Source: Phlebiopsis flavidoalba
Lineage: Eukaryota; Basidiomycota; Agaricomycetes; Polyporales; Phanerochaetaceae
Length of the DNA: 64,000 bases
Assembly: GCA_035772785.1 (NCBI GenBank)
Contig: JAOCPU010000035.1
Location: 248,001 to 312,000, forward strand
Direction: 5' to 3'
Both the position numbers and the translations under genes were made by a program. Each line of letters opens with the position of its first letter. Position 1 is the first letter of the stretch. Positions 18,058-57,120 of the stretch are shown piece after piece. The notes under the pieces are model-generated. The model was not told the origin of the DNA. It saw only the letters and a program-made list of their open reading frames with translations, and made no database searches.

Positions 18058-18329
18058 TCGTTTTTTTGCAAGGCCCCGGAGCGCCATGATATACCTTTAG
18101 TATTCTCTTCTCTCCGCTCAACTCGGATGGAAGACGTCTCTTAAGCTCGTGTACCGATCTGCATCACTCAAGTTTCACAGCCTCCTCCTCCGTCAGATCA
18201 TTGCACTTGGAATAGGACGTCAAACACGGGACACAGCACCTAACACTTCGGAGGGAAGACTGACTTAGGTCCTTGTAGCTATTGAAAACCCGGTATTTAA
18301 GCCTGCCACGACACCTGCACGGCCACCCC

Positions 18330-18341
18330 AGAGCCGGCTCT
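18330..18341 (+). promoter_or_regulatory. Palindrome AGAGCCGGCTCT, promoter of secreted-protein gene a
   Basis: Perfect 12-bp palindrome 36 nt after the TATA-like TATTTAA (18294-18300) and 54 nt before the ATG at 18384, so near the expected transcription start. Confidence 0.75.
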
Positions 18342-18383
18342 CTCCCTATCGCACACTAATCCTCTTCATCTCGACAACGAGTC

Positions 18384-18542
18384 ATGCGTTTCATTCTCCT
18401 CGCCTGCGTGTTCATTGCTCCTCTTGTATCCGATGCGTTGCCACTCAGCACAACATCTTTCGAAGCCAACACCTTACTATGGTGGCACCGGGAGTCTCGA
18501 AATGGGCATTCGGATATCCGCCAGAACGACAACGGGCAGTGA
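18384..18542 (+). CDS. Small secreted protein a, exon 1
   Basis: The exon opens with a clean signal peptide, MRFILLACVFIAPLVSDALP, followed by a hydrophilic stretch ending RQNDNG. It stops at a phase-2 GTGAGT donor at 18539, and reading on gives an in-frame TGA at 18540, so an unspliced message would encode a 52-residue secreted peptide. A matching second exon may start at 19030 (after GGTGCAG): in the expected phase it reads TRPIRCTTTKSSVQGAPGWK. That would need a 490-nt intron, long for this genome, so the link is uncertain. No frame break in exon 1. Function unknown. Confidence 0.6.
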   Translation: MRFILLACVFIAPLVSDALPLSTTSFEANTLLWWHRESRNGHSDIRQNDNGQ

Positions 18543-19472
18543 GTACGACTCGGACTGGCTCTTTAAGATGCCAGTGCTGACGAAGTGAGGCTAGATTTAC
18601 ACATTTGCTTTCTGTGGGAGAGTCGCGCAAGGCGGTCTATTCTGAGAAATGAAATGGGGACACAATGGGCTTAAGCTCCTCGTTATAGTAGGTGCCTACT
18701 TACTTTCGCAGCTTGACAGGGAAGCTGAGAGGCCTTGAAGCGGTCTGATAAGTGTCGCAGCGCAGGAGTTACGATCAGGATTATCATGAGCCTCGCTCGC
18801 AATAAATACCCCTGGCAAGCGCGATCGACGGCATCTTCATGTCCAGTACATTTTCTTTGAGGATTGTACAAATTATCCCTTCCAGTACAAGCAGGAGCTG
18901 TACCCTCGTGCTTACGGAAGGAAATTTTTTGGGTTTGGAATCAATAGCTGATTAGGCTCGGCCTAGCTGGATCTGAATCAAGTGGGATTTACAATCATGG
19001 CAGGTGGCGCTTGATTCTGCCGGGTGCAGCACCCGGCCCATTCGCTGTACGACCACAAAGTCATCGGTGCAAGGCGCGCCGGGTTGGAAGTACGAGTCAA
19101 CATTGACAACGAGAGGGATGCGTCGCGGTGTATTCCGTCCAATTTAACCCCGAAATTTGAGAGTGTAGTGGTCTCGCACTACGTCCACGAAACAGCGCTC
19201 GTCGCCTGTCCTTTGCTCTGGGAGTTCTCCTGCGGCGGCGGATGTAAGCTTGAGAGACGTTTGTTTTGCACACGGACGTGTGCGGAGTTAGGCATAAATT
19301 TCAAATCAATGCTATGGAACGACGAGACACCTTGACATTCAGCATGTGTACATCCATACACTCCGGGATGATCTCAGGTACGCCTGTGTCTGCGTCTTCC
19401 TATAAATTCCGGAAGTGATTCGTGCAATGACGAAGCTATATATACGAAGTGCAACTTCAAGCAAAACTTCGC

Positions 19473-19484
19473 AGAGCTGGCTCT
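19473..19484 (+). promoter_or_regulatory. Palindrome variant AGAGCTGGCTCT, promoter of gene b
   Basis: Lies 36 nt after TATATATA (19437-19444) and 37 nt before the ATG at 19510. Both 5-bp arms are intact and only the centre differs. Confidence 0.75.
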
Positions 19485-19509
19485 CTCCCTCATCCCGACC
19501 ACGAAAACC

Positions 19510-19871
19510 ATGCAGAGCGTCCTCAACCTTCATCCTCCTCGCGCTGTCCATCCCTATTCTTGCAGGCAGCGCCCGCCCAATAGCACGCTCAGACCACACG
19601 CATCCATCACAGGCTATGGATAAGGGCGAATCGTGAGTCAGTCCGGGGCTACCTCGACGTCACGCCGGCTGACGTACCACGATCGCAGATGGACTGCTCG
19701 CGACGGACGCGAGCTGAGCGGAGCGTTCTCGCTGAACCCGTACGAGATTTCGCCCATGGTTGGGAAATAGCATCTAATTTGCGCGCATAAAGAATCCTCG
19801 CAGATGTGGGTGAGATTGTCGGGAGCGGGCGCGCCGACTATTGAGCAGGACGTCCAAGCACTGCGCCCCGC
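19510..19871 (+). CDS. Small secreted protein b (one-base break in the signal peptide)
   Basis: The ATG at 19510 reads MQS and then leaves frame. The next frame gives STFILLALSIPILAGSARPI, a normal signal peptide, and continues to MDKGES at a GTGAGT donor at 19633. In that frame the intron is phase 2, as in its relatives. A candidate second exon, 19804-19871, reads WVRLSGAGAPTIEQDVQALR and aligns with GAPRLNDLQDAIR of gene g. An alternative exon at 19689 (AERSVLAEPVRDF) cannot be excluded. A single extra base after codon 3 explains the break; sequencing error and decay are both possible. Confidence 0.5.
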
Positions 19872-20571
19872 GTATGTAGTGACACGTCACGGAACGGCGA
19901 GAGAAAGCTGATCAATGCTGCATAGGTCAGGAACGTTTTGAGGAATGAGTCATGTTCGAGTGTTTTGAGGGGTTTGTCCCATCGCTGTGTTGGCCAAATG
20001 ACAGTTTTTCAGGAGATTTACGAAGCGTAGCCGACACATGATAAAGGGAGGTGATTGCACCACATGGCTGTGAAAGAGGCGATGTGTCGTGACTGAGCGA
20101 ATGCTTGATGTCGTCGAAGCAAGCCGCGGATCGCAGATTTTGCGAGTAATGCCAATGTTGAAGAAACGTCGGCACGTCAGAAATCTTGCGCTATGCGAGA
20201 GGGCACGTTTCTCGTTGACGGGCCGGGATTCCATGAGGGAACGATCGTCGTGGCGCAGGCGCGTCGCATAGCCACCTTGTCCGCCACTCGTTCCTTGCCA
20301 CGCCTGGTGGCGTGCGCATGCAGCTTATAGTATGCTGCCTGCTATACGCGCGAAAAATTGGGTCAATCATCGCTAGTCTGTTAATGAAGGACTTTTTGAC
20401 GTACAACAATGTCATCTGCGCCACATACATTCCATCATTTTCCTGCTGGATGGCTACAGGGCAAGAACGGACTTGGAGCCCTGCCGCTGCGCCTTCCACA
20501 GATGAGCGCTGCTGTCCAGAAGCGCGGACGGGGAGCATATAGACAGAGCATGAATGCAGTGGATGTTTTGC

Positions 20572-20583
20572 AGAGCCGGCTCT
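20572..20583 (+). promoter_or_regulatory. Palindrome AGAGCCGGCTCT, promoter of gene c
   Basis: About 35 nt after a weak TATA element (ATATAG near 20537) and 52 nt before the ATG at 20624. Confidence 0.75.
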
Positions 20584-20623
20584 CCTGTGAATTCGCCCAT
20601 ATCCACCCTCCTCCTCGACAACA

Positions 20624-21264
20624 ATGCAGCGCACTGCAATCTTCGTTCTGCTCGCACTCAATTCAACGTCGTCACAAGCGATGCGCGACCTCTGCCAGTC
20701 GCCTCTCCCGCACCGTAAGCCCGCGTTTTTTTTCTTGACGTAGGGTCCCAGAAGAACGTCTGAGATATGTGGAAACATAGCCTAGGCCTAGACACCACCT
20801 CGCCCTTCTTCGGCGCTCCGAAAATGGTGGATTTCATCATCTTCGTGTGGGCCAAGCCCGTACGTTCATTGCAGGCGTTACAGATGTAGGGTGTAGTGTT
20901 GACTAATCACGATGCAGTAATGGGCGGTTTTGAGAAGGAGGTCACGAGCTCCAGGGATCCAAAGCGTTTGGTGTATGGTGTGTGTGAGGCAGGGTACGGG
21001 TCGTCCACTGTTTTTGGCGGGTATGGAGAACGAAGAGAATGGGCGAGTGGTGAACATGTAGGCATCGGGGGCCAGAATGGTATCGATGTTTTTCTCTGTT
21101 TCGGACCAATGAGGAAGATGTCGCGTGCGATACATCTCGGGATCAACTTGAAAATGTACGGTGTAAGAATAACTTCACAAGGAGTTGATGTCACTAGGCT
21201 CACCTTTTTACTCATTCGCTGGCCAGTTGTCGCCGCTTTGTGCGTTGCGGTCATGATATTTTGA
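20624..21264 (+). CDS. Small secreted protein c
   Basis: Exon 1 (20624-20714) opens MQRTAIFVLLAL. The mature start SDARPLPVASPAP is one frame over, a single-base deletion relative to gene d. The GTAAGC donor is phase 2 in the corrected frame. Exon 2 (20781-20859) reads, after one base, LGLDTTSPFFGAPKMVDFII and VWAKP, ending at GTACGT. A third exon after the acceptor GATGCAG (20917) stays open to 21264: MGGFEKEVTSSRDPKRLVYG, then CEAGYGSSTVFGGYGERREW, and ends in a hydrophobic segment LTFLLIRWPVVAALCVAVMI. That segment could be a membrane or anchor signal, or lie beyond a splice at 21161. Function unknown. Gene d is its tandem duplicate. Confidence 0.6.
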
Positions 21265-21664
21265 TTCGCTCTTTTGCTCAGGGGATATGCACAGGGACGG
21301 TAAGAGAAACCACAGGCGTCGTCCAATGAGGATGAGGCCATTGTCCTAAGAAAACGCATCGGCCGTGCGACGCAACGCGAAACATGCTCTCCTAGCCGGC
21401 CCAAGGCGTGGCGGGGCCATGATTGTCGCCACATAAGACGCTTCGCACAGCCCGTCCTGTCCACAGCACAAGGTTAACACTGATTGATTGATCAACGCAG
21501 ATCCGACGTACCTGTCCATCCAAAACATGCGCACCTCAACAGCCGCATGCTGAATAACCGCAGGTGAAAGCGGGTTTCTACGCCCGCTTCCAGCTTCAGA
21601 TAAGCGCCCGGGACTGCGTGCGCGGGCAGCATATATGCAGAGAGCGACCGTGAAGAACGACTGT

Positions 21665-21676
21665 AGAGCCGGCTCT
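21665..21676 (+). promoter_or_regulatory. Palindrome AGAGCCGGCTCT, promoter of gene d
   Basis: 34 nt after ATATAT (21631-21636) and 46 nt before the ATG at 21711. Confidence 0.8.
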
Positions 21677-21710
21677 CCTACAACACGTCCATTCAAACTA
21701 CCTTACAACG

Positions 21711-22060
21711 ATGCAGCGCACCGCTTTCGTCATCCTCGTCGTTTCTTTCAACATCTTCGCAAGTAGCGCCCGACCTCTCCCGCCCCTCTCTAAGTCTCTG
21801 TGAGCCATCGTCATTTTTATACCTCCTACAAAGCGTCTGAGATGACTATAGCGGCTTGCCTCAGGGGATGACTTCGCCCTTTTTCGGTGCCCGCAGGTGC
21901 TGAATACGGAATGGTTTGGCCCGCAGAACCCGTGCGTGTTTTGCATGGGGCGGAATAAAGTGTATAGCTGACTAGATTATCGTAGTGGTGGGCGGTTCTG
22001 GTAACGGGAATGATGGGACTTCTTGAGGGTCCCAGGAAGTCGGTGCAAGGTACACTTAGG
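21711..22060 (+). CDS. Small secreted protein d
   Basis: Exon 1 (21711-21799) is intact: the signal peptide MQRTAFVILVVSFNIFASSA is followed by RPLPPLSKS and a phase-2 GTGAGC donor. Unspliced, it stops at once after 30 residues. Exon 2 (21852-21931) begins in the matching phase and reads GLPQGMTSPFFGA. One missing base then shifts it; in the next frame PQVLNTEWFGPQNP aligns with gene c. Exon 3 starts at 21986 with VVGGSGN and, after another one-base break, EGPRKSVQGTLRAW, aligned with SRDPKRLVYG of gene c. The 3' end is not resolved. Confidence 0.55.
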
Positions 22061-22339
22061 GCTTGGTTATTCCCCAAGAAATGACAGTTTGTCGATGTAT
22101 GACGTAGTGAGGGACAAAGCCCCGAATGCAGTGATCGGTTTGCGGTAACGTTGAGCATTAGGTCTTGAGTAGCTATGTCTACTTTGTAGCGATAACTGAA
22201 GCAGAGATACCGTTAAGTATTACTTCGTGCGGAGATTGATGTCTCCCATACTCACCATCTACTCATCCGTCACCCGCTCGTTCTCGCCCACTACGTCCTG
22301 GTCACATGAAAGACCGTTTGTTTCGTCCGAGGGAGTAAT

Positions 22340-23838
22340 GATAGCAATCCCCGGTGACCAAATGGCTGGAGACAGGAGCAATATCTGCATTTACGACTCA
22401 GCAAACTAGATATGAAGGTAAGCACGTGCCCCTACTGCGAATCCTGAAGGGATACTCACCTTAAGGAGACTATATGCGCTGATCAATTGACGGACTGAGG
22501 CGCGACGTAGTGCGTGTCCAGCGCGTCGACTTCTTACTGTCTCCTTTCACTTGGCAACGATACAACGCTTCCGCACATTTGACTTTCTCTTCCTTCATTA
22601 AACCCTCTCAAGCGGCGACCGCGTGGGATTTTGTTGTAGGAACGCGACATCTGAATCTACTGTGCAGGTGAATAGACAACGCGCTTTGTGAATCGATTTT
22701 GAACTGACCATAACGCGTCCCTCGTACATACCACTAACGGCTTCTAGCCAGCTGCTTCGTCATTATACGATAGGTGCGCCCCAAATGAGCGATCCCAGGC
22801 CGACAGTGCGTGTTTTAGCATCCCCGCGCATGATGACCACCCTAGGCTATGGCTGCGTTGGCAGATCAACACGAGGATTAGAGGACCCAGTGATTCATGC
22901 TCACCCAATAACGTAGACTCAGAAGAAAGAGCATGTCTTAAGCAGAATGTGCTGGACGACCAGACGGACGGTGGTGGCAGAGCAAAGAGACGAGGGAACA
23001 CATATTAGCGCCGGTTGTCTGAGCGTCGGCAAAACGCCACCATGCCGCCACCATCTAAATTGGGCACTAGGCGCGATTGATGCGCCTTGATATACGAAAC
23101 GCCCGCATTTCTTCTCTCCCTTGTTCATGACTCTCCCGTTCATGACTCGACAGAGTCGGTTCTCGCCTCAACAAGCTTGGTACTTTTGCTAAATACTTCA
23201 CTGCGGCGGATATCTCGAAGACGTACCGAGAGGGTGCAACGTCTGGGACGAATGCGCGAACCTCCATGACGCGAGTCCGACCGGATCGTCGTTGGTGCTA
23301 CCGACCAGAAGTCCGCCGAACGCTGTGATCCCCACAGCAACGCTTTCTCAAAGGTTGTCTGAGGGGTGTAATGGATCCACTTGGAAGAAGAGGAGAAAGC
23401 GCGGCTCGATACACTGGCAGATGAGAGGAGAAATGCTGCCGACTGTCTCCTCCTGGACGTTCCTTCATAAAACGCTTTGCTCTAACGGAACCGAGGCTAA
23501 TGCACTGCTGTCGCTCGTTGTATGCTAGTGGTAAAGATGTGTTTGGGCAATATTCCACGGGTGAGTATCACGTCACTATCACTTGCGCTTTGTACGCTGA
23601 TCCACCAGACAGACTGTAACAGCCGCTGGAAACCCGTCTGTGTGCAGACAGAATTTTCGGAATCAGATCACCTCGGAACCTCGTTCAGAAAGTCGGTCAC
23701 GTATGCGATGTGAATGGCGTTCATTGTTGCTTTAGGGTTCCTCTAGACTCAGTACAACTCAAGGGTATACTGCAAGCACACGGCTCATAGCCTCATCCCC
23801 CCTCATCGACATCGAACGCTCCTTCCACACCGCCACTA
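22340..23838. other. Intergenic, with one unassigned coding-like segment
   Basis: Plus-strand fragments at about 23170-23480 (KYFTAADISKTYREGATSG, then EEEEKARLDTLADERRNAAD) look protein-like, the second strongly charged and helical, but they lie in separate frames without a supported start. A degenerate palindrome at 23152 precedes them at the wrong distance from its TATA-like element. Confidence 0.35.
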
Positions 23839-25020
23839 TCAACCTCTCCGTCCATGCTTCTTCCTCATAGATATACATGGACTCCTAATCCCTCTTCCCG
23901 CTTCGTCCCCCTGGTCGTTTCGGAGAAGATCAAAGCCGTCGCCTTTTTCCTTAAGATCAAGCGCGGCAGGCACGACCTCTTCCGAAACGCCGTCCTGTGG
24001 CTGGCAAATCTCCTGAGCTGCATTCGTAAGCTTATGCTCAAGCTCATGCATCTCCCCTTTTGCGTCTTGGTCGCACACTTTGACGTCCTCGCCGGTACCG
24101 GCGGGATCTTCCTTGGTCGGGCCCTCGTCAGCTTGCACCTCCTCTTCCAGGAGTTGTTCAAGGATGGACCTCTCATCCTCGTCAACTATCTCCCCCCTAT
24201 CCCCTCCAAGAGCTGGACAAGGATGGACCTCTCATCCTCCTCTTCGTCCTCCGACGCCTCTGCCTCTTCAGTACAAAGGAGACAGGAGACCCTCGGACAC
24301 ATGGCGCCCGTGGCTCGTCGGCCGTGGGCTTTGAAGCGGTACAAAACTTTTGCAAGAGCACGTTTGTGGGAGCTGGGGTATCATCGTGTCCCATCATCGT
24401 GCTCCTTGAGGAAAAGATCTGCCTTGTCATTGGAGGCCGGTATGTCGGCCTTCTCATCGATGGAATCCTTGAATCTAAGAAACATGCCCTCTTCGTTAGG
24501 CTTCCCTGCAACGTCGATTCCGTCATCGTCAGCGCCCTCAGAGACCCCGCCCTCGTCCTCGGACCCGGAGGTCGTCTCGGCTGCCTAAACTCTGCGAAGA
24601 CAACACGGTTCCGAATGTTGAATGTTCGCAGCCTAGTACCAGTGGCCGTGTTGTTCGACACCCCGTCGTCACCTTGACCGAGCTCCCGTCTTGGCTGCTC
24701 TGTGGATTGTGCTGCAATTTTGCCCAGCACACGACGTCCGTGTATCTCGGGAGGGCTCTGAGGGCTCGTGATATCTTGCTTTTTTGGTGGCGTGATGCTT
24801 CCGACGAAGGACGGATACCCCCTCCTAGCCGTCCCGTACACTGGCGATGTGTGGGGCTGGTTCTCGTCCCCCTCTGGCTCTGAGTCTGACTCGCAGTCGG
24901 ACCATGTCGCTGGCCTCAGCCTCATCCATGGTCTAAGCCTTCGGGCCTTTGTCTCATTTGTTTTTTGTAAGTGTCTTCTGTTTCTTGGCTTGGTACTCTT
25001 CGTTGATGTTGCTCGTAGAG
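23839..25020 (-). CDS. Acidic, disordered protein X1 (paralogue of X2), unknown function
   Basis: Read on the minus strand, the 5' part contains ATWSDCESDSEPEGDENQP and the motif IRNRVVFAEF. The 3' part is highly charged: EAEASEDEEEDERS, then a near-duplicate pair EDERSILVQLLEG and EDERSILEQLLEE, then EMHELEHKLTNAAQEI and DLLRNDQGDEAGRG before the stop at 23839. A plausible first exon starts MTSTSNINEEYQAKKQK at about 25028. The same ATWSDCESDSE and RVVF motifs, in the same order, occur in the gene at 27.7-29.6 kb. Composition suggests an intrinsically disordered, probably nuclear, protein; that is inference. Several one-base breaks. Confidence 0.5.
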
Positions 25021-26354
25021 GTCATGGCTGTTGACTCCTTTGACTGGTAAACTTTCCACGGGGACGCAAGCTTCAGGCGTCACCGTGTGGCGGCCGATAT
25101 CCGACGCGCCGAGGTTTGACTCTGTTAATGGTTCCCTTACTGTCTACTACAACGCTGAGGCGAAGCACTTACTTTTGGTCGGCGTGGCCTTCGCTCTTGG
25201 CCACGGTGCTCGCACCCGTTATGACCGGCAAGCTGTAAGAAGAGGTGAGCGGCGTCGATAACGAAGCTACTGTAAACATACCGTTGATCATTATCTGCTA
25301 CAGGCGCGCCCACAGCTTCTTGGGTAGCTACGGCCACTTCGTTCGATTCCTCGCCACATTGGCCTGTTTGTCCTCAGGAGCAAGACGCCCGCTATTTATG
25401 TTTGTCGTCACCATCTGTGCTCTCTGACCTACGTTTGAGTGCGTTGCAGACTTGTAGATGAGTACGGACTCGGGGAGAGGACGTTGAAGGAAGAGGATGT
25501 GGTGGTTGTGGTTCAAGAACTCGTGTGGCGCGTCAGGGGCCTTAAATCACCACCCGCTTTGCATTGTCCGTCGCCTGATCCGCCCCCCGACGCCCTCGTT
25601 GCATCTCGGCGACTGCTGACAAAAAGCATCCCGCCGAACAGACAAACGAACTTTCGGCTTCGCTGAATGCGCCCACGACCCCATTGTTGCTGTCGGCCAC
25701 CTGCAATGCATCGCCCTCTTAGTCGGCCACTTGATTCGAGTACAAGGCTCCAGACGGCGTGTCTAGCTTCGAGGGTAAGGCTGTTGCCTGCTGTTCTGTA
25801 ACGGCCGACTTCTGGTCGATAACCCCTCTGTCGTCGTTTACGGCCGCATAGAGCTGACTCACTTCGTGTCGTCGACCGTCCTACGAGTCCACATCAATTT
25901 GAAGCGTCTATACCCCTTATATGCAGTACGTGTTGGGTCAAAGTTGCGACCATTATTCAGCTGATTTTTGCTTTGGAACATAGTCTGCGAGTATGCCACC
26001 GCTTGAGGTGAACCAAAGCTTCAACGCTTGAGTTATGTTATTGAAGGCCATGGTCCGGATAGTAAGGTGGCATTGCAGAATATCCCCCCGTATATCGTCC
26101 AATAATCCGGCTGCAGTGGGAACAATGATCAGTCCTTGAACGCGAGATGTTGCACCTGGTGCGATCCACAGTTGGTGTCACCTCGTGACTCATTCGACGC
26201 AGCCCTTGCGAAAGTCCGGTGCTTTTCAGGATCCAACCTATTCAATTCATCGCATTGCTGCCCACAGAGAGCTCTGCTATCAACTGTACAACGTTGATCT
26301 GACTGACTCTATGGACAATACAGATGGGAGATCTCGACAACTATGACGCTCGCT
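25021..26354. other. Unresolved stretch between X1 and gene e
   Basis: A plus-strand open frame at 25031-25261 (VWRPISDAPRFDSVNGSLTV ... YNAEAKHLLLVGVAF) ends near a GTGAGC donor, and another at 25439-25666 (EYGLGERTLKEEDVVVVVQE) is coding-like. No family is recognised and no gene model is proposed. Confidence 0.35.
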
Positions 26355-26379
26355 TACCGTCATCGTCTATCCAAGCAAC
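26355..26379 (+). promoter_or_regulatory. Upstream block shared by genes e and g
   Basis: 22 of 25 bases match 31156-31180 (core ATCGTCTA-n-CCAAGCAAC). It lies about 184 bp before the ATG of gene e, and the partner about 181 bp before that of gene g. It could be an activator site or simply residual duplication. Confidence 0.5.
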
Positions 26380-26488
26380 AATGGATAAACTTCAATCTCC
26401 GTAAGCATACGATCCGAAGAAAAATATGCTCTGATTATTGGGAGGCCGCAGTATATATGCGGCGCTGTCGACGTAGGATATGTTTTTC

Positions 26489-26500
26489 AGAGCCGGCTCT
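26489..26500 (+). promoter_or_regulatory. Palindrome AGAGCCGGCTCT, promoter of gene e
   Basis: 37 nt after TATATAT (26452-26458) and 50 nt before the ATG at 26539. Confidence 0.8.
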
Positions 26501-26538
26501 CCAGCAATCTTCCATTTACTACACGCCTTTGCTAAATC

Positions 26539-26794
26539 ATGCGGGGAATTCTGTCCTTGCTCTCGGTCGTTCTTGCTCTCGATGCTCTCATAGGAAGCAC
26601 CGAGCCGGTCGCAGATCACTCCCACGTTCTCCCGAGCAAGACGCAGGAGACGAGGGTTCAATGTGAGTAGGTCATATTGGGAACTCACCCTGAAAGAGTC
26701 TGAATGACTTGTTTAGAACTCATCTAGCTGAGCCTTTTGGTGGCGCGCCATATTTGTTTCAAAACGTTGCTGAAGGGTTTGGAGGCGACAGCGG
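26539..26794 (+). CDS. Small secreted protein e
   Basis: Exon 1 (26539-26662) carries the signal peptide MRGILSLLSVVLALDALIGS followed by TEPVADHSHVLPSKTQETRV and a GTGAGT donor; unspliced it stops at 26668. Exon 2 (26717-26794, acceptor TTGTTTAG) reads from its second base THLAEPFGGAPYLFQNV and AEGFGGDS, then GTGAGT. Glu-Pro and Gly-Ala-Pro occupy the same exon positions (5-6 and 9-11) as in gene g. Exon 1 ends in phase 1 rather than phase 2, so one base is probably missing or extra. Further exons after 26795 were not identified. Confidence 0.6.
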
Positions 26795-27739: not shown

Positions 27740-29568
27740 AGGCGCATAAAAGGGCAGAAGTCCCCCATCGACTCCTCCATCGGCTCCCTCAAGCTCTCCC
27801 CCCACGGCCCTTCTTTGCGGGCACATTCTGCTCCTCGTCCCCTCTTTCTCTTCCCCCCTCCAGTCTGCTTAGGGACGGCTATTTTAGTCGCTGTCTCTTT
27901 CTCGGCTTTCTTCGACGGGGGCCTGCCTTCGCACTCTCGGCGCTTCGCTCCGTCGTCGTACTCTTCCCCTTCCCCTTCGCCTTTTGGCTCGTCGCCCTAG
28001 GCTGTGGCTGCGCAGGTGCGGCGCGCGGCGGCTTGTGTTCGGTGAAGTTTTGCTGCTTTTTTAACTGCGATACGCGCGCTCCGTTTCAACCGTGGGGAGC
28101 GTCGCGGGTGCGGCGTCCACAGCGCTTGTCTTGCTCGGAGGTCTCTTGTGCCTCGCAGGCTAGCCCCGAGCATCCGCCTCCAACCCCTTTTCGGTCTCCT
28201 CACCGCCAGCCACAATACCGGTATCACCGCCAGCGGGCTCGTTGGAGACGACAATCTGTTCGCTACCGCTAGGCCCGCTCTTCACTTGACGTCAAGACCT
28301 TCGGCGGCGTGTGGAAGCATCCGCCGGTTCATTTTGGAGAGCTTCAGAAGCTAGGCGATTATCCTTCATCGCGGAGTTTACCGGTGCTGTCTCTTGCACA
28401 GGGAGGTCCCAAGTCCAGAGGATCGAGAGGATGTACCAAGGCGTCGTCGTCTTCGCCGGCCGAGTCCCTGGTCAAGAAGAACTCGACCTCGTCGTCGGAG
28501 CTGACTGCTTCATAGCCGGCCTCGTTGTTGCGGAATACAACGTCAGATCCCTCGTCTTCGTCCTCGCTCTCTAGCCCCGTGTCGTTTTCCAACCGTCCGA
28601 ACACCACACGGCTGCGGATCTTAAACGCGACCTGGTCATCGGATTCCTCAAGAGCGATATCGGCTTGAGAAATCGCCGACGGGATGTTCACGTCGCTCTC
28701 AGGCTCCTTTACTGCTCTTCCAGCAGACCACCAAGGGCATTGCGTCCATGGTGCCCCCGGGGATCCCGGAGGTGTGATATTTCTTCTTACTGTGAGCAAG
28801 TCGTTCGCAGGAAGGGTGAATACCCCTCTCCGGGCTATCCCGTGCATCGCGGCGGGGGTGGTTGGTTGTCTTCCCCCTCAACCTCTGAGTCTGACTCGCA
28901 ATCGGACCATGTCGCCCGGCTCTCAGGGTAATGCCAGGGCCCTAAGCCACCCATACTTGAGTCCCAGTTTCGAAATCATTGCTCGCTGGTCGGACTACAC
29001 GGATGATGAGCTGACGATATGGCTCGGCAAGAAGAATGAAATACATACGGTGCGTCGTTCTCCTCTGTGTTGTCTTGCAGCTGTTCATCGTCATCGTTCT
29101 CAAAGGCGACGCTTGTGTCTTTATACAGAGGTGAGCTCGTGGCGTACAGCGCCGTATCTCCTATGGTTTCCGAAGTCAGACTGACGCCAAGGTCAACATC
29201 GCTGGTGTCTTCCCCACTCTCGGATACAACACTGCCATCGAAGTCAGTTTCAGGTCACAGCGCGGGTCGCGGCCGACCACACACCTTTTATCATTCAGCG
29301 ACCCTCGTCTTCGGCCCGCAGCGGAGACGTGCTCATCGGCGCCGCCGAGCTTCAAAGGACGGGTGGAGCAGTGTTATGCTGGGGGAGGTCACTGCGAACG
29401 TACTGCTGACCCCCATCTGGTACAGAATCGTCCCCGTCACGTTGCGCGGCTTGCTTCAGATCCATGGCCATCGAAAGACTCTTGAACCTCAGGAGTGAGG
29501 CGGCTGCTAGCTGCGCTCATCGCCGCGGACAGTGGTCTCTGGCCAACACCCGAGTCCTTTGCAGACAT
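27740..29568 (-). CDS. Acidic, disordered protein X2 (paralogue of X1), unknown function
   Basis: The minus-strand ATG at 29568 opens MSAKDSGVGQRPLSAAMSAA, then RLTPEVQESFDGHGSEASRA. Next come VVSESGEDTSDVDLGVSL and VAFENDDDEQLQDNTEEND, then ATWSDCESDSEVEGEDNQP, shared with X1, KIRSRVVFGRLENDTGLE with EDEDEGSDVVFRNNEAGYEA, and a basic 3' part, HPRRSPRLKRSARIA and KAKGKGKSTTTERSAESAKA. An acidic body with a Lys/Arg-rich end resembles chromatin-associated or retroelement-linked disordered proteins, but I recognise no named domain. Frame breaks are frequent and the exact exons are uncertain. Confidence 0.5.
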
Positions 29569-31155
29569 ATCGGTACGTTTTGGTACCGCGAAGAAGGCAA
29601 AGACGAAGGTGGAGGTCGTGTAGTGGTCAGTGGTGGAAGATACCCGCGTCGCGCCCGCGTCGGTCCTTAAATCGCCCTGCGTGGTCCATCACCAACCGTG
29701 TGCCACTCCTTGTCAAAAGGTCCTTTGTTCCCCGCCCCCATCAACGGGAAGGTGGCCGACGTGGCCTGCTCGCGTCATTGGCTCGCTGCTGCTGGGCTCG
29801 GGATGTGTCTGGTGAAGTATTACTAGTATTACTCCGCCTTTCTCCAGTTGCAGTAGAATGGGTCGCACCCCGCAAAGTTTACTGGGCCCCGACCTTTAAC
29901 ATTGCCGTCACTAGCAGATGCTAGCCTCAACTAGGTGGACCCGGTAGGCATCTTCTTGCCCGTTTGCGAGGTACACGCGTCCCACCCAAGCTTATGTCAA
30001 GAAAGAGTCTACCATCCTTTTCGTGCTGTTCGCGCGAAGCGCAATTTTCTCACCGCCCCGCGAGTAGACTTGAACTTACATGTCAATGAGTATTTTCGCC
30101 CGCTTGTTATGTGGCATGCGTTTTGAATATTCGAATGCTTATCTAGTGGACTCATTAAAACGAAAAAGTGCTGCTTGCTAGCTGAGAATATGTGTTCGAA
30201 GGGGAGCAATGCCTGAATTGTGCACCGTGACTAGCGTGCAGCGTTCGCCGCTCACTGTCAGTAGGACGTAGGCTCGGCCATCGGCCATCGGCTATCGGTC
30301 ACCGGACGCTTACGCCCCGCCTCAGTCTTCGAGACGCCCACGCTAGCTGTCCGCGACCACCATTTCTCGCGTCGTCGTCCGCTCCTGCTCGATCTCAACA
30401 GTGTACCCCTCAATTCCCTAACCACCTTTCACAATCGATCTCTTAGATTTGAATGAATGAACTCTATTGCCCGAGATTACTCGTGGCATACCGAATGCGG
30501 GCTCTCGAAAGCGAGCTCTCGGGTGGCAAGGAAAATCATCCCACTGTGCTGACCAGACGAGCAATTTGCATGTCAATGATGTCTGCATCTTCGGGAAGGT
30601 GACCGGCCCGAGGCCTCTACGATTTGACGGCTTTTCTACTCTGAGAGGTCTCAGACGCAAGTCTCCACCCTTCAAAGCATTCACGAGCTGAGCCACAAGT
30701 CATGGTCAGTATTGCGCTAGCCTGAGCGCTGGCAGTATACATGACGACTTACGCATTTCCCAGTTGTTCAATCGTCCAATCTGTCCCTGAAGCACTATCA
30801 AAAGCGAGTGACCCAGGTTGTGCCAACGTGGGAGAGCCTGCTCTGCGGAGTCACTCTCGCATCTGTGCCTTGACTAAAACCGTACCACGGTCGAAATTGT
30901 GCATCACATCTCTCTGTTGCATTGATACCGAAGTATCCCTCTCCCACAGTTGCCCTCGATACAATGCCTGGAAGCTGTACGCAGTTCGGACCACCGCTGA
31001 TCTCAACACGCCCACAACATGCCGCTTATCGCATTGCATACACTTCAGGAGTCTCGGCTCACGAATGAATTTTGAACAAAGTGCGCTAACATACTGATCT
31101 GACGAGCGGCTGACGACAACGTAGATATAGCATCTTAACACCAACGATACCCGCA
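29569..31155. other. Gene-poor stretch with a short repeat
   Basis: Contains the GGCCATC-type repeat at 30273-30304. No supported gene. A palindrome-like site at 30833 lacks a TATA box and ATG at the family distances. Confidence 0.4.
30273..30304. repeat. Short GGCCATC/GGTCACC repeat, copy 1
   Basis: Related to the longer array at 32017-32084. The sequence after both is also alike (CGAGACGCCC ... GTCCGCGACCAC), so this is a dispersed element rather than a chance microsatellite. Confidence 0.6.
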
Positions 31156-31180: not shown

Positions 31181-31309
31181 TGTAGATGGAAGTGTAGTAT
31201 CCCGCTACGTGCATTCCAAAGAGAAATCCGTTCTGTCGCAGAACACACATACAGCACAGCAGTATATGGACAGTATATATGTGGGCCGCAGGAACAGAGC
31301 AGGTTCTGC

Positions 31310-31320
31310 AGAGCTGCTCT
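31310..31320 (+). promoter_or_regulatory. Palindrome variant AGAGCTGCTCT, promoter of gene g
   Basis: 36 nt after TATATAT (31274-31280) and 27 nt before the ATG at 31337. Arms intact, centre reduced to one base. Confidence 0.75.
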
Positions 31321-31336
31321 CTTACAACACCCCACG

Positions 31337-31615
31337 ATGCAGAGCATCTCAACCCTTGCCCTCCTGATTATCTCCTGTTATGTCTTCATGGCGAGTACGC
31401 TCCCGGTACGACGCCTACGACGCACGCACCTGCGTTCGAAGAGACGAGGGCGGAGGAGGATAGATGGAATGTAAGCCGGCATGATCGCAAGCGTATATAA
31501 AACAGCTGACAACTCGTCTGCGTGGTGAGCTTCGATATAGGGCAACTGTTTCGGAGCCTTACAATGGCGCGCCGCGGCTGAACGACCTTCAAGATGCGAT
31601 ACGGGGTAGTGAAGA
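31337..31615 (+). CDS. Small secreted protein g with basic linker
   Basis: Exon 1 (31337-31470) encodes the signal peptide MQSISTLALLIISCYVFMAS followed by a strikingly basic linker, VRRLRRTHLRSKRRGRRR, and ends in phase 2 at a GTAAGC donor; unspliced it stops immediately. Exon 2 (31541-31615, acceptor CGATATAG) resumes in the matching phase: ATVSEPYNGAPRLNDLQD then AIRGSE, followed by GTGAGT. This is the cleanest member: promoter, start, signal peptide, splice sites and phase agree without correction. The Arg-rich linker holds several dibasic sites of the kind fungal KEX2 proteases cut; that is inference. Later exons not found. Confidence 0.65.
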
Positions 31616-32016
31616 GTGAGTCGACGCGCACAGAGACGTCGATCGTTCTATAGTGTGGACTCAGTATGGTTGCGCAGCTTGTTGTTGCTTTAAGAAGACT
31701 CGCGTTCTGGCAGATAGTACAATGGCAAAAAGACGAAGAATATGTCAGCATGTGAGTATCAGACGCGCCAAACACACTCATGGGCTCGATGCTCAATGAT
31801 TTATCACAGCAAGCAGCGCAGATCGGGCAGAACTGGAGGGCGAAGGATATAGATGTACTGCATATAACGCAAGCCCCGTTAAATCATGGTTTCCAAAATT
31901 TGAAGGAGTAGAGGGATGTGCAGGATGCTTAAAATATCGTTCAATTGCATTCTACGCTCACTGCACGGCATGTCGAGATCAATGTTGCGGCTAGGTTTCG
32001 CTACGCCACCATGGTT

Positions 32017-32084
32017 CGGCCATCGGTCATCGGCCATCGGTCATCGGCCATCGGTCATCGGCCATCGGTCATCGGCCATCGGTC
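32017..32084. repeat. Tandem repeat, 14-bp unit ATCGGTCATCGGCC
   Basis: About five alternating GGTC/GGCC units. Related shorter tracts lie at 30273-30304 and, inverted, at 38065-38087. Confidence 0.9.
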
Positions 32085-34462: not shown

Positions 34463-35124
34463 ACCATTGATTGCTGGGGGTTCTCGCCTGGAGCTCCAGC
34501 AAAGGCAAAGTTGTCGGAATCGATCACGGTTCCCCGGCTTGAGAAAAACAAAACACAGGATGTCAAGGTGAATGCGATTGCGCATACGATAGAGGGAGGG
34601 CTTACAAGGACGCAGCCGGTCTCAACGGGGACTCTGGCGCTGGTGGAGCTGGCGATTGTAGTCGACGTAGTTGATGAGGACACGTCGCGCATTTGCCACC
34701 TGAGTAGTACAGGTAAGTGGACGAGAGTGCGTAAACCATGAGACAACTCACGCTCCGCGTTTTTCTACTTTCAAGGACCCACTTGCGCGCTGAGGATGCG
34801 ACTCGGGGAGTAATGGACGTGCGCTGCTCGTAAAGGCCGTAGGAGGATAGAACAAGAAACAAGATAGGACGTGGCGTGCATCGTGGAGGATTCAACGAGG
34901 AAGGATGGAATAACGAACGACAGAGAACCGGCTCTAAAAAATCCTCTACAACTTGGCCTCGTATTATATGTTTGCCTTCATCCGCTGTTTTGCTTGATGA
35001 TATGAATCTGGGCTGTGTGGATAGCGGACAGACTCGGAGGTACCCTGCATTCGTGGGGGTTACTGCGTGTGATCGAGATCGGTATTGCGAAGCTATGAGA
35101 CAAGGCGAAATCAATGAAAGATGA
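34463..35124 (+). CDS. Gene D, possible distant GAP-exon family member
   Basis: After the acceptor GGTCTTAG (ends 34462) the exon reads TIDCWGFSPGAPAKAKLSE then LEKNKTQDVKVNAIAHTIEG and LALVELAIVVDVVDEDTSRI, ending at a GTAAGT donor near 34711. A last exon beginning near 34778 reads, with breaks, GRGVHRGGFNEEGWNNERQ, CLPSSAVLLDDMNLGCVD and CDRDRYCEAMRQGEINER to a stop at 35122-35124. A first exon may lie at about 34325-34406 before a GTAAG donor, but no ATG or signal peptide is visible there. SPGAP resembles SPFFGAP of genes c and d; homology is only suggested. Confidence 0.4.
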
Positions 35125-36125: not shown

Positions 36126-36166
36126 TATATAATCCTACTACTACTGACGATGACACTGCTCACGGG

Positions 36167-36178
36167 AGAGCGGGCTCT
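36167..36178 (+). promoter_or_regulatory. Palindrome variant AGAGCGGGCTCT, promoter of gene h
   Basis: 41 nt after TATATAA (36126-36132) and 39 nt before the ATG at 36206. Arms intact. Confidence 0.7.
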
Positions 36179-36205
36179 CTTCTCCTGATCATCTCCCGTA
36201 ACCCA

Positions 36206-36407
36206 ATGCGGTCTCATTATCTTCGCATTGGGATTCTTCATACCAGTGTGTATCTGTAGCACGGCCAATCTCTTCTTACTTTGTTAAACACTAAACTACC
36301 TCCGCTTGGGAGCACTCCTTCCTCACTAGCCGCAATGGCCTAGCTCCGGCGCACCGCCTTATCCAGAGGTGGTGGAGATGGGGCCCGGTGCAGACTCAGA
36401 TGGAACG
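36206..36407 (+). CDS. Small secreted protein h (frame break after the start)
   Basis: The ATG at 36206 leaves frame after two codons. The neighbouring frame gives GLIIFALGFFIPVCICSTA, a good signal-peptide core. Exon 2 (36344-36407, acceptor GGCCTAG) reads from its second base SGAPPYPEVVEMGPGADSDG and ends at GTGAGT, with the GAP motif in the family phase. A further exon-like segment, 36541-36766 (acceptor TTTTGACAG), can be read as YVATKSQAFVRRGLSNIL or, in another frame, LKLSCAEAFLTFCGDKESVL. I cannot choose between them. Confidence 0.45.
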
Positions 36408-37372: not shown

Positions 37373-37414
37373 ATATATATGCGGGTATGCGATACACGTT
37401 TACAAGCGCCCACC

Positions 37415-37426
37415 AGAGCAGGCTCT
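37415..37426 (+). promoter_or_regulatory. Palindrome variant AGAGCAGGCTCT, promoter of gene i
   Basis: About 42 nt after ATATATAT (37373-37380) and 38 nt before the ATG at 37453. Arms intact. Confidence 0.75.
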
Positions 37427-37452
37427 CTCACCTCCATCCCCATCCTTCAATC

Positions 37453-37663
37453 ATGCAGATTGCCACAGCCCTCACAGTGTTGCTTATTTGCCTCCGATTC
37501 TCCTTCAGCAATGCCCTTCCGGCGCCGCTTCATGGGACTGGAGATGTTGATAAAGATGTGAATCCGTCTCTGCGGATAGAGCATATACTTATTACTGAAA
37601 AACTGTTCAGTCTAGATAACGATTTTCACTCGAATCCTTTCAACACGCGCCCTCAGACGAGTT
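37453..37663 (+). CDS. Small secreted protein i
   Basis: Exon 1 (37453-37557) opens with the signal peptide MQIATALTVLLICLRFSFSN, then ALPAPLHGTGDVDKD, to a GTGAAT donor. Exon 2 starts at 37611 after CTGTTCAG and reads LDNDFHSNPFNTRPQTSC, where NPFNTRP aligns with SPFFGAP of genes c and d but the GAP is degenerate. Reading through the intron keeps one open frame to 37719, so an unspliced form is also possible. The intron phase differs from the other members, which suggests a one-base error or a different donor. Confidence 0.5.
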
Positions 37664-38064
37664 GTAGGAGTTTTTTTTCGGCCCGCCGTGAGTGGGTTTG
37701 CGGGGTTTCATACCCTTAGCGGAAATGAGTGTGAGAGAATAACTGGCCCGACAGAAACGGTTCGGATAGGTTTCACTGAGCTTCCTTGATTTGAAAGGCC
37801 TACAATATATGAAAATCAGCGAGCTTGATGTGTTTCTGTAGAGGATGCAGGTGCTACGAAATCGGCAGAAACCGGGGTTGGCCACCCGGAATCTGACCTG
37901 CAGGTATCGATGTTTTCTCCTGCTACCCTTGTATATATACCGCCCAAAGAGATGTGCACGCGAACCAGCGCGGTATCATGGATGATTAAAGCATGATCTC
38001 TGCCCTCAGCGGGAAAAGATCTATATCGAGTAGGGGCGACTCAAGGGACCGCTCGGCGGTCGCA

Positions 38065-38949: not shown

Positions 38950-39509
38950 GCAAAGGGTGCCGCAAACAAGCCATCTCTCGAATCTCAGCCTACCATCGGA
39001 TTTTGGGACTTCTAACTTGCTGTAAAACAACACGGCATCGCGAAGACGAATCTGGACGGCACGCAAAGCAACAGCCTCGCGCGCACATCTCATAGCAGAA
39101 GCTCGTCGACCAATGCTGTTGTGACCCTATCTCGCTCCAGAGCAGCTCTGCGCCGACGTGCGTGTGCAATCTTTTCGCATATAACTGCTGGTCTGATGAT
39201 AGGACAGATCGCACCAGTACTTGATTCTGCCCGGCGTTGAGTAGAATGTCCTGGACGAGCTGGCAACGCTCGCAAGTCGAGCGAGTTACGCTCTCGTCTC
39301 GGCTGGTGTCAAGACTCGAGTTCTGCTCCTGCCGATAACGCAAAAGAAAGCTGCTACTATTCATGTTTGGTCCAAAACTACGGGGATGAGCCAGATTCAC
39401 AGCCTTTTTAAACGCGCATACAATGACCTACGCGGCCTAGAGCAGCTCCGTATCATAATCGGTTCAGGAGCGCGCGAGTCGGTCGGCGCCACGTTTTCCC
39501 TCCCATTCG
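38950..39509. other. No clear gene
   Basis: Short frames only. A palindrome-like AGAGCAGCTCT at 39136 lacks the family layout. Confidence 0.4.
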
Positions 39510-48730: not shown

Positions 48731-48779
48731 TCTGTTGTTGTTGTTAGAAAGACCCGAAGAAAATGAAATGAGGGCTTAC

Positions 48780-52465: not shown

Positions 52466-53347
52466 CTGAAGGCACAAGCTTTCAATTCTGTTGATTGTAG
52501 GGCGGCAAAATCGATTTCGGCAAGAAGTTTACGTTCGAAGTCATGATAGTAGGGCGAGGAGGTAAGCAAACGTGGGGTCAGGAGGTAATTCATGATAGTT
52601 GGGGTGAGGAGGGTAAGCAAACATTGCTCCAACATACTAGTTGTTACTGACCATGTCGCGTTCTAGATACATGCAGTAGGCGGCCTCAACATGTTTAAAT
52701 TTGCATGGCGCGCTGAATAATACCTTTTGTGGTCTATGGCGTACACCGCTCGTCTGTCAAGACATGTTGCACTGTCAGTTCTGCAGCGATGCGTCGGAGG
52801 CTATGTTGAGAGTTATATATCGCCGTAGGCCAGCCCAGAAAAGTCCTATATTTCACTGCTTCCATATTGCCTTATATCCGCTAGGAAAGGACTGACGCCA
52901 TCTGGATGCCTTTCCTCCTAGACTCAAACCCGGAAATTCGACGTTGTTGTCCTAGCCTCTGCAGCGGCGGGTCAGCATGCCATATTTTGATGTAACATAA
53001 TGTGGGTGCTTGATTGTAGCACTCAAAAGCGAATAAAAAGCTGTGCTGCTCGCTTATCATGTCGAAGGTAGAGCACGCCACTCACAGATATATCCCCACC
53101 GTCTTTTGGACCAGCCCATTTTAAGAAGACGACGGTCATATTATGAGCGCTCCCCGTCGCGATCTGTTAGCTCGCGTCGGTCCGGATAGCCTACTCTGAT
53201 GAATGTAGTTACCAAGTGGTACCTGGTCTCTCACGCGCACTTCAAAGAGCAACAACGGCGCTCCTGGGACCTGAGGGCCTATCATGCACATCCAATATGT
53301 TCCTGGATAGTGGGTGTTAATTTGTTTCTTCAATATCATTCACAGGT
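52466..53347. other. No clear gene
   Basis: Contains two nearby direct repeats around 52540-52620 (CATGATAGT..GG.G..GAGG and GGTAAGCAAAC). No gene seen. Confidence 0.45.
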
Positions 53348-53460
53348 CGACACCCACCCCGCCCCCCCCCCCCCCCGGCCTCAGCCCACCCCCACCCCCC
53401 CCCCACGTTGACCCACACCACCCCCCCCACAACACCCGAAACCCCACCACCCCACATCAC
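53348..53460. repeat. Long C-rich low-complexity tract
   Basis: About 110 bases, mostly C in runs of 4-16 separated by A, G or T. Confidence 0.9.
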
Positions 53461-56400
53461 GTTGTTGGTTAGTTTCACTACCCTACGATCGATTACCCAT
53501 GGCAATGCACTACAGTCGAGACTAGACTCCTAGTGCTGGAACGACCCTTGGTGTACGCCCAAATCGCTGAAATAGCCGGGTCAACGGTTCGCAGTCAAGG
53601 CAGCGAGAAACGTCAGAGTATCGCTTTGTTAAACGATATGCCGAAGGACAGAGCATGGCACTGATTTACAACAGCGTGCATTGCTTTGGACGACCACTCA
53701 CATATATAATGAGATATCGAGTACAGCCGTTTCTTTGCTCTTCTTCTTGGCAGGTCCAGTCCACCACATCCCTTGACATTGCTGGGTCTGCGCGGTACAG
53801 GTGTCGCAGTAAGTCGTGATCTATGTCAGTGAATTATGATGCATCATTTACAATCTAAGTCATTTACAATCTAAGGCTTCGTCGTGTGCATACTTTGCAT
53901 TAATTACTTAGCATATCACATCTTATAGACCATGAAAATCTACAAATTACAAAAATCTTGCTTGCCTCCTCCTAGGACTCTAGTTATTCAGTCGAGTCAT
54001 CGCGCCGCCCCTTTCAACAGGTCTCCCAACGAGCGTCTTCTGTAACTCTGTCAAGTCAGCGCTAACGCTGCCGACTGTTAACTCTCGGTGCGCTTACTCC
54101 TGTACGGTAATATTTTGACAAGCTACGAAATTCTCACATTGCATAGAGCCCGCCTTTGTCAGAGAGACACGGATACATTGGTAGCGGTGCACACCCCCGG
54201 AGGCAGGTGAAAACCGTGGCACAGGGTATTCGGAAAACATGAGTGAGTACCGGCGTTTCGCGGTGTATACACCCATTGACACGTGGGTTCTACCATTTTG
54301 TAGCGCGTCGTGCATAACGACGGGCGGTTTTGAAGGCCTGAATGCATCTTTCTCAGTGCAGAGACGTGCTGCTGGCAGTACCCCTGGGCTGGTGATTAGC
54401 AGACTACGTGACTCTAGTCTTCCTAGCTAGCATGGTCTGATAGTTTGCTTAGAGGATGCAAAAGTCATAGCCAGGGCCCACCGCCAGCATGTTCCGGTAA
54501 TGATATGTAAGCAAGATAGAACTGCACCGATACCCTGGCGGTGCGCTTCGTTTTTGTACACTCGTTTGAACTCGAGCCTATCAGGTAATCTGTGATTACC
54601 CCATGGGCTCCAACTCAATGCATTAAAAGGCTCAGTGCTCAAAATGTTTTAGTGTTGAACACTATGTGTTGACCTCTCTACGGTCCTTGGGAAACGTCGC
54701 AGAAGAGCTACCGAGACCACAAAACCAGGTATGCGAACAGTCATCCGCGAAAGGTCCTCTAGAATTAGGGAAATCTACCGACACAGCACTTGACGCGGCA
54801 TGAGAATGATCGGGACTGCATTTCCCAAGGAAGATACAACAGCTGGAGTTCTTTGCATCATCATCATCCTCGATTCCTCACGGAAATCGTTCGGAGTAGG
54901 CTAACGTTGCAACCAACTTCGAGCATATTTACGGCCCCGGGTACCTGCGGACGTTGCTTTGACATTCGTGAGGGCTTTGGGAGCCCTGATGTGGGTGCTG
55001 ACTATGTGATGTCAGATCCCACGCTTTTGAGGGCGGCAGCACAATGAGACGCCTCTTATACGTCTTTGCGATCCGCTGTCGTGCTGTTGCGTTGTGATGG
55101 GGATTGCTAGATGTGGTTACGTTCGATGGTAGTAGGTGTTCGCAGTGACGAGTCTGCTGATTGCATCATCGTAATAGCCAGTTATATATGGACTAACAGA
55201 CCCATACATTTTACTGAGACTCTCTAGCTCAGGGTAGTCTCGTCTCCATCCCCGGAATTTCTCAGGTAGTACTTGGTACTACCCTGGTGGTGTGTCAACT
55301 AGCGTTCCTGATGATTCCATACTAACGGTCGCTCTAAGTCTATTTGTGAACTTTTCATCTTGCGGAAACAGTCATGAAGGCTTTTGCGAGCAGCACCCCT
55401 GCTTTTCGTGGTCTTCGCAGCTATGGTGACTCCTCTGGAAATATAGCGCTCCTGTTGCCTTCATAGAGCACAAGAGTCTCGTACGCCGTGCGCCACCCAC
55501 TCAACCCCCTGGTCGAGGGTATGAGGCCCGGCTCTGACTCAGCATTTAAAGCCTTCTGAGACTGAGGTGGGAGTCATTATTTTAGGAAAGTCACTCGTTT
55601 GAGTACCTCTTGACAGACTTCTTGCAGCTTGATGATAAGACCCAACGAGCTCCATATTGTGCTGGTTTTATTCAGCGCGTCGCGTTCATTGGTTCCCGAA
55701 ACTCTACACCGTTTAATGTAAAACATAGGACTCCACTGTGGGTGTGTGACCACTTATACATGCTATCTTGAGACAAAGAACTCAGAGCCACGGGCCACGC
55801 AATTATGCCCCCGTGTCCGAAATATACTACGCTAAGGTAAGCCAAGATACTTCACCATAATTATTCTGGGTTGTTTGAGGGACCGAGCCCTAAGTCTATC
55901 TTCATACTTTGCTACAGCGATTAGGGTGTGGTAAATTGGCGTACCCAGAAGAGACTGTACTGAGTCTTTCCTCACGATGTCTGTCATTTGCATGTTATAT
56001 CAGCTTGATCATGTAAAAATCAAATACACTAGCAACAAAAGCACTGGACAATGCCTACAGTGTGTCGCACTTGTTCTTGAATAATACGAGATGATTGGAG
56101 GCCGTTAGTAGGCCACTAGCAAATTCGCCCTCATTTATTGTAGTTGGAAGCAATCAAGAGAAAAGACTTAGCCTTTAGAATGAGGTGATCGATGGCGTAC
56201 ACCATCGAGACCTGGCCATCAATCTTTGAAGATGTGGCTGTAAATTTTACACTTCGGCCGGTTCCAAGCTTAAGTTCTCCGAACTTGACAGATAGATGGA
56301 AAGACAAGTACCCCGCTACGAGAAATGGCGACCAGTCCCGTTGCTACAGTGGACTCAAATACATCTCATAGTACATCATCTCGGTCTGACCTCGACTATC

Positions 56401-56602
56401 CTCATGTTGCTTTGTGTACAGCATGAACTCGCGGTAGCCGTGGTCGACTGCATTCCAGATTACAGAACCCTTCTTTACATCCAGATGTGCACAGCTCCAC
56501 GTTGCTCATCCCTTCCGTTGTGTAGCTGCGGGATAAGGCGTGTTCGGCTCGCGGAGAACGGGAAATGGTTATGATATTTCCACATAGCAAGACTCACCGA
56601 CG
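53461..56602. other. Largest gene-poor stretch of the window
   Basis: Open frames at 54239-54430 and 54790-55047 are unremarkable. A possible broken signal peptide starts at 55374 (ATG then, one frame over, LLFVVFAAMVTPLE), but its TATA element at about 55183 is too far away for the array design. Confidence 0.4.
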
Positions 56603-56640
56603 TATATATGAGGACACATCTGAGGTAGTAAGGGATCAGC

Positions 56641-56654
56641 AGAGCAGGTCCTCT
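56641..56654 (+). promoter_or_regulatory. Degenerate palindrome AGAGCAGGTCCTCT, promoter of gene l
   Basis: 38 nt after TATATAT (56603-56609) and 44 nt before the ATG at 56685. Outer 4-bp arms are intact, with a longer centre. Confidence 0.6.
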
Positions 56655-56684
56655 CGTCAGTCGCTTTCATATTCCTTCCCAAAG

Positions 56685-57120
56685 ATGCAGACCATCGCAT
56701 TCTTCGCCATCCTCGCTTTCTCCTTCCAAGCTCTCATGGGTACCGCTACGGCCGGTACAGCCCAGTGAGCTTGTCTAGCCGTGAGAGCATGCCATTTAAT
56801 GGTGCACACCAGACATGAGATAGTAAGTCTTCGCCGGCAGAATGTATCGCTCTCAGCTGAGCTAATGGGTGCGCAGCGAGCATGGTAGGGCTATAGCGTC
56901 GAACGTCACGGCACCGCGAATACCACTTTGGCAACCTCGTCAGTGGGGTAAGTAGCCAGCTCAGCTTTTCGAATTGTATCAACATCATAGTTTGATTGTT
57001 GGTTATAGTTCTGGCTCGGTCGGCGAGCCCGTGACCGAGCAAGGCGGCGCGCCCCACGTTAGGATCCGCTCATCGCGAGGGACTGCGACCAGCGTAGTGA
57101 CGACATGTGATAGTATAATA
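56685..57120 (+). CDS. Small secreted protein l
   Basis: Exon 1 (56685-56764) is little more than a signal peptide, MQTIAFFAILAFSFQALMGT plus ATAGTA, and ends in phase 2 at a GTGAGC donor; unspliced it stops after 27 residues. The GAP exon is at 57009 (acceptor TTATAG), in the matching phase: SGSVGEPVTEQGGAPHVRI then SSRGTATSVVTTCD. Between them, 56831-56941 could be an additional exon (acceptor CCGGCAG, donor GTAAGT), but it contains a stop in the natural phase. Gene l lies 19 kb from the rest of the array, next to the pectin methylesterase. Confidence 0.55.

Follow-up and report, generated by a model that had tools for sequence, protein, structure and literature searches.

A directional 13-base element at the predicted transcription start of a family of putative secreted-protein genes in Phlebiopsis flavidoalba

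Introduction

Promoter motifs of secreted-protein genes are known from nematodes, and start-site elements from oomycetes. Here a short element with a likeness to both is described from a basidiomycete, Phlebiopsis flavidoalba, where it was noticed in a window of 64,000 nucleotides (contig JAOCPU010000035.1, hereafter C35, positions 248001-312000) of a genome of 36.28 Mb in 129 contigs; positions given below without a contig are those of the window. It resembles several described systems in part. The nematode motif STATAWAARS is lineage-specific and predicts secreted-protein genes (PMC6062891). The nematode DOG box is reportedly likewise a lineage-specific motif of effector promoters. The oomycete INR+FPR is a region of 16 to 19 nt at the transcription start, the combined form of which is linked to regulated genes (passages of PMC3599244). 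Among basidiomycetes, the mig2 genes of Ustilago maydis also encode secreted proteins and carry a TATA box some 40-46 bp ahead of the start (passages of PMC9604717); cis-active elements of their promoters are the subject of a paper to which PMC4917244 refers.

Results

A family of 14 loci sharing one arrangement

The full arrangement, a TATA box followed by the element and by an ATG that opens a signal-peptide-like stretch, is found at 14 loci genome-wide, a lower bound, since the matches to altered forms of the element were examined in part. A sequence-only reading of the window had reported nine such genes, and all nine elements are present (at 18330, 19473, 20572, 21665, 26489, 31310, 36167, 37415 and 56641), with the classes it described: four are the perfect palindrome AGAGCCGGCTCT, three are variants of the centre, the one at 31310 has a one-base centre and that at 56641 keeps only the outer arms. 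Its spacing of 34-42 nt from the TATA box agrees with a six-base TATA core that begins 35-41 nt ahead of the element, as it does in all copies of the family, and the ATG begins 27-54 nt past the element's first base. Five further copies were added, one on the minus strand of the window (34935), one elsewhere on C35, two on contig C11 (C11a and C11b) and one on contig C49. The earlier statement that all lie on the plus strand thus fails for the family, as the copies at 34935, on C35 outside the window and on C49 are on the minus strand. A nucleotide profile of the first nine copies, from the TATA box to the signal peptide, recovers the copy at 34935 (E 1.7e-8) and those at C11:673118 (E 3.1e-15) and C11:674754 (E 6.9e-11) when run over 90 kb. 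The remaining two were found by genome patterns, at 339 kb on C35, which is 34 kb beyond the array of the window, and at 255.6 kb on C49; a 12-copy profile run over 280 kb scores them at E 5.7e-20 and 1.8e-19, respectively, the best score of a reversed-sequence control being 0.76. The family is clustered, with 11 of the 14 loci inside 73 kb of C35, and includes two close pairs (20572/21665 and C11a/C11b).

The element is conserved and its flanks are not

The element consists of 13 bases with a direction, AGAGC-N-GG-N-Y-CTC, within the extended consensus C-AGAGC-N-GG-(C/T/A)-(T/C)-CTC-Y. All 14 copies agree at nine positions (1-5, 8 and 11-13), while position 7 is G in 13 of them and a gap in one. 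Variation is confined to position 6 (C in seven, A in four, T in two, G in one), position 9 (C in ten, T in three, A in one) and position 10 (T in 12, C in two). Mean pairwise identity among the 14 copies is 0.89 in the element, compared to 0.28 from -60 to -25, 0.33 from -24 to -1, 0.35 from +14 to +27 and 0.28 from +28 to +60, a profile little altered by removal of one member of each close pair. Codon bases after the ATG show an identity of 0.35 (12 copies). Recent duplication, considered as a cause of the conservation, is weakened by this divergence and does not explain an element so much better kept than flanks at 0.28-0.35. The description of the element as fixed arms around a free centre had to be revised: the left arm is invariant in 14/14 copies, the right arm deviates in four, and in the centre base 6 varies whereas base 7 is G wherever it is present (13/13). 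A strict palindrome with both halves equally constrained is weakened by this variation, with the caveat that the genome patterns themselves fixed most of the letters. Wherever a dyad pair varies, one side alone varies, and the element therefore has a direction.

Specificity for the family

A search expression covering the whole arrangement hits nine of the ten family copies in the window and nothing else, whereas 200 simulated windows gave 0.03 matches on average; copy 20572 is missed because its TATA box reads TATAG. Genome-wide, TATA-N24-44-AGAGCNGGNNCTC gives 21 rows at 13 distinct places, 12 of which belong to the family (backward-pattern control, eight rows), although this pattern cannot match the members 18330 (TATTTAA) and 31310 (one base shorter). 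As to the possibility, raised in the sequence-only reading, that the motif is equally common away from starts, the outcome is divided between this TATA-coupled form, which among the places found is nearly confined to the family, and the bare element, which is not enriched. All six genomic sites of the perfect palindrome AGAGCCGGCTCT are at family promoters. The words CAGAGC and TATATA each occur in 9 of 12 non-redundant promoters, while six-letter words reach at most five in the null. No second word shared upstream (-350 to -46) rises above shuffles, nor does any motif at +150 to +500 except GTGAGT, the intron donor (eight sequences compared to a null maximum of seven).

Genome searches with altered elements were made in five forms, and the family layout is absent from every non-family place examined. 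These searches returned 13 family and nine other places (three of the nine examined; backward control six rows), eight family and 15 other places (five of 15 examined; control 17 rows), 11 family and five other places (two of five examined; control eight rows), and one family and three other places (control 16 rows). In the last search two of the three others were examined and the third is on the minus strand of the window at 39149, where TATATG lies 34 nt upstream of AGAGCTGCTCT; this site lacks the CTC end and a signal-peptide-like frame and is chance or a relic. With positions 1 and 3 relaxed, 12 family places, all keeping A at both positions, and four others (one of four examined) were obtained (control 11 rows). 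A secreted-type gene on contig C76 (C76:24100-24860, minus strand; L051) has a TATA box and a similarly placed AGGGCAGGCCCTC, in which both arms are changed symmetrically. If real, this variant would favour a palindrome; the profile search found nothing there, and it was judged a chance resemblance.

Position relative to the transcription start

The base directly before the element's first A is C in 11 of the 14 copies. Passages of PMC9604717 place the start 35-40 bp from the TATA box in Cryptococcus, on the authority of a manuscript in preparation, and 40-46 bp from it in certain genes of Ustilago, Nectria and Coprinopsis. In Aspergillus nidulans the distance is 30-45 bp, and 49% of tight starts are at a CA (passages of PMC4046813). 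Since the spacing and the preceding C fit these published fungi, the first A is likely to be +1, so that the element would begin at, and span, the transcription start.

Predicted proteins and broken frames

Judged by eye, each member begins with a signal-peptide-like stretch, the end of which reads S-A-R-P or a similar x-P-L/V. In three of the first nine copies (19473, 20572 and 36167) the ATG frame misses the family-like frame, that of 20572 still being signal-peptide-like in itself. In the six unbroken window members whose first intron was predicted by script, the intron is in phase 2 in four and in phase 1 in two. Two themes are discernible by eye farther on. One, a (D/E)K(R) site followed by an exon like (W/R)(Q/T)xRD, is found in the C49 copy, 34935, C11a and 19473; the site may be one of Kex2-type cleavage. 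The other is an exon carrying (E/S)Pxx-GAP or a related form, as EPFGGAP in 26489, EPYNGAP in 31310, EPLSGAP in the C35 copy at 339 kb and SPFFGAP in 20572. None of eight unbroken predicted members matches Pfam at E 0.1, none of 1053 candidates matches at E 0.01 in a protein database that includes Phanerochaete proteins, the one member searched has no match in the PDB, and a genome protein search with one unbroken first exon returned only the exon itself.

Frame breaks, in which the ATG frame leaves the family-like frame, affect 5 of the 14 copies (19473, 20572, 36167, 34935 and C11a) and may represent recent decay or sequencing errors. C11a has an additional in-frame stop at the second exon (by eye), and C11b has a stop three codons past ARP. 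The frame-broken copies have elements no less intact than those of the rest.

Copies in the window

Window copies are on the plus strand unless otherwise stated. The frame is unbroken in copy 18330 (18294..18538; TATA core at 18294, element at 18330-18342, ATG at 18384, predicted first exon to 18538), in copy 21665 (21630..21903; TATA core at 21630, element at 21665-21677), with predicted exons at 21711-21799 and 21852-21903 encoding 46 amino acids, and in copy 26489 (26452..26662; TATA core at 26452, element at 26489-26501, ATG at 26539), where a predicted first exon to 26662 precedes the EPFGGAP exon. It is also unbroken in copy 31310 (31274..31470; TATA core at 31274, ATG at 31337), the element of which, at 31310-31321, is one base shorter and the predicted first exon of which, to 31470, is followed by the EPYNGAP exon, and in copy 37415 (37374..37687; TATA core at 37374, element at 37415-37427, ATG at 37453, predicted first exon to 37687). 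The last unbroken copy, 56641 (56603..56764; TATA core at 56603, ATG at 56685, predicted first exon to 56764), has its element, AGAGCAGGTCCTC, at 56641-56653, and its nearest relative is the C35 copy at 339 kb. Among the broken copies, 19473 (19437..19512) has its TATA core at 19437, element at 19473-19485 and ATG at 19510-19512; copy 20572 (20536..20626) has them at 20536, 20572-20584 and 20624-20626, the SPFFGAP exon lying downstream (by eye); and copy 36167 (36127..36208) at 36127, 36167-36179 and 36206-36208. Copy 34935 (34879..34970, minus strand; TATA core at 34970, element AGAGCCGGTTCTC at 34935-34923, ATG at 34881-34879) is broken in the signal-peptide part. A further element, AGAGCAGGCTCTC, at 30832..30844 on the minus strand, has neither TATA box nor nearby ATG (profile E 9.8e-5); it is a possible promoter relic and is kept outside the family count.

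Genomic surroundings

The copies on C11 and C49 adjoin multi-finger ZZ zinc-finger genes (C11:670135-670666, L001; C49:254486-254828, L039), which are the multi-finger ones among four genomic places with ZZ matches and whose blocks are 70% alike. A separate, younger repeat is common to both regions (L001:6526-9311 and L039:6213-8940), with 95-99% identity along most of its extent. Of 28 local reading frames compared with Pfam, one matched DUF6535 and three matched ZZ; the best relative of the DUF6535 frame, at 62 kb, is in Phanerochaete carnosa of the Polyporales (60% identity over 57% of the query, E 6e-25), and it is from this one frame that the kinship of the host with Phanerochaete is drawn. 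No telomere repeat TTAGGG was found in the examined contig ends of C11 and C35. The window also holds a tandem-duplicated block, of which 24799-24939 is 75% like 28804-28948; its minus-strand reading frames (24197-25021 and 28359-28877) interleave with copies 26489 and 31310, and Pfam gave no match for 24197-25021 on either strand or for 28359-28877 on the minus strand. Downstream of copy 31310, a 14-base tandem repeat occupies 32016-32084 in 4.9 perfect copies.

Discussion

These sequences give good support to a conserved element at the predicted start site, common to a family of genes for predicted secreted proteins, and this part of the sequence-only reading is upheld, in contrast to its fixed-arm palindrome and its RNA stem. 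The element is best read as the site of a DNA-binding protein. The TATA box 35-41 nt ahead would position the transcription start at the element's first A, a dedicated protein factor would read the element as DNA, and this factor would switch the genes of the family together. As little else is shared around it, the element would be a switch dedicated to this one gene family. That the element is family-specific and directional, and is read in this way by a dedicated factor, appears somewhat probable.

Several observations weigh against such a switch. The invariance is partly a matter of ascertainment, the genome patterns having fixed most letters of the element. The bare form AGAGCNGGCTCT is not enriched, with 36 rows at 30 distinct sites (a palindrome is counted on both strands), nine of them at family promoters, and 32 rows in the backward control. 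When the coding start alone was profiled with each copy left out in turn, together with its close partner if it had one, 7 of the 14 copies were recovered at E <0.01; one scores 0.044 and four score 0.2-3.5, among them 19473, poorer than a non-family place, while 18330 and 36167 are unrecovered, and the weakest members are tied to the family mainly by promoter and layout. With five of 14 frames broken, some copies may also yield no protein.

The position relative to the TATA box, the CA at the predicted start (the dinucleotide at 49% of tight A. nidulans starts in passages of PMC4046813) and the want of another shared motif would equally suit a strong extended initiator, preferred by the general machinery (TFIID) and fixing a sharp start with no dedicated regulator. 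Such an initiator would be expected at numerous unrelated genes with a TATA box, but only 1 of the 13 places found is non-family, and this explanation is considered unlikely. The usual initiator is, moreover, far shorter and less rigid than this element. A dimeric protein on a true palindrome, with half-sites of unequal strength, would account for Watson-Crick pairing at dyad pairs 1-12, 2-11 and 5-8 in 14/14 copies, at 3-10 in 12/14 and at 4-9 in 10/14, and for the restriction of AGAGCCGGCTCT to family promoters. It is made improbable by the one-sided changes of the varying pairs, by a central pair complementary in only 7/13 (position 6 is C in 7/14 compared to G at position 7 in 13/13, Fisher p 0.006) and by a conserved C at position 13 with no counterpart on the left.

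Passive inheritance, in which young duplicates or promoter gene conversion retain an element without function, would agree with the clustering on C35, the two close pairs and the retention of the element in broken copies. However, identity falls near random within a few bases of the element, even after thinning of the close pairs, and the spacer between TATA box and element is unconserved, which makes this explanation very unlikely. A control element in the mRNA leader, a stem or a protein-binding sequence governing stability or translation, would at least be well placed, as a correctly predicted start would put the element at the extreme 5' end of the transcript. The RNA stem offered by the sequence-only reading was nevertheless rejected: the element's own hairpin exceeds a probability of 0.5 in only 2 of 14 leaders, the remaining 12 giving at most 0.27, no copy has both arms changed in a compensating manner, and Rfam gave no match in 18000-58000 of the window. 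Control through RNA is regarded as most improbable, although an unstructured motif in the leader would be compatible with these results.

Returning to a protein that reads DNA, a quite unlikely extension is that the element is a rigid, directional 13-base start-site address by which one factor picks the members of a birth-and-death array to be expressed. As the address is intact even in copies with broken frames, selection might then act on it as much as on the peptides, and a choice of one copy at a time would be possible, broken copies serving as donors or decoys. Phanerochaete species are wood-decay fungi, and the kinship of this basidiomycete with them makes a classical plant-pathogen effector set unlikely. 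As a guess, the products are secreted peptides directed at self or competitors and evolving by birth and death.

Regulatory sites in fungi are as a rule short and degenerate and lie upstream, and a rigid 13-base site at the likely start, near-exclusive to one orphan family, would be unusual wiring for a gene family. The element reveals peptide genes too divergent for protein similarity and could serve as bait for its presumed reader protein. No description of it was found in the open-licence papers searched, whether by its sequence spellings or by topic, and it differs from each of the likenesses named at the outset. The cis-elements of the mig2 promoters reportedly lie upstream of the core promoter, unlike an element at the predicted start. 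In the passages of PMC3599244 concerned, the oomycete INR+FPR belongs to about 13% of genes in another kingdom, with no TATA box detected, whereas here a TATA box is present and a single family is involved. The nematode motifs mark many unrelated gland-cell genes, while the element of P. flavidoalba marks one family, at its predicted transcription start.

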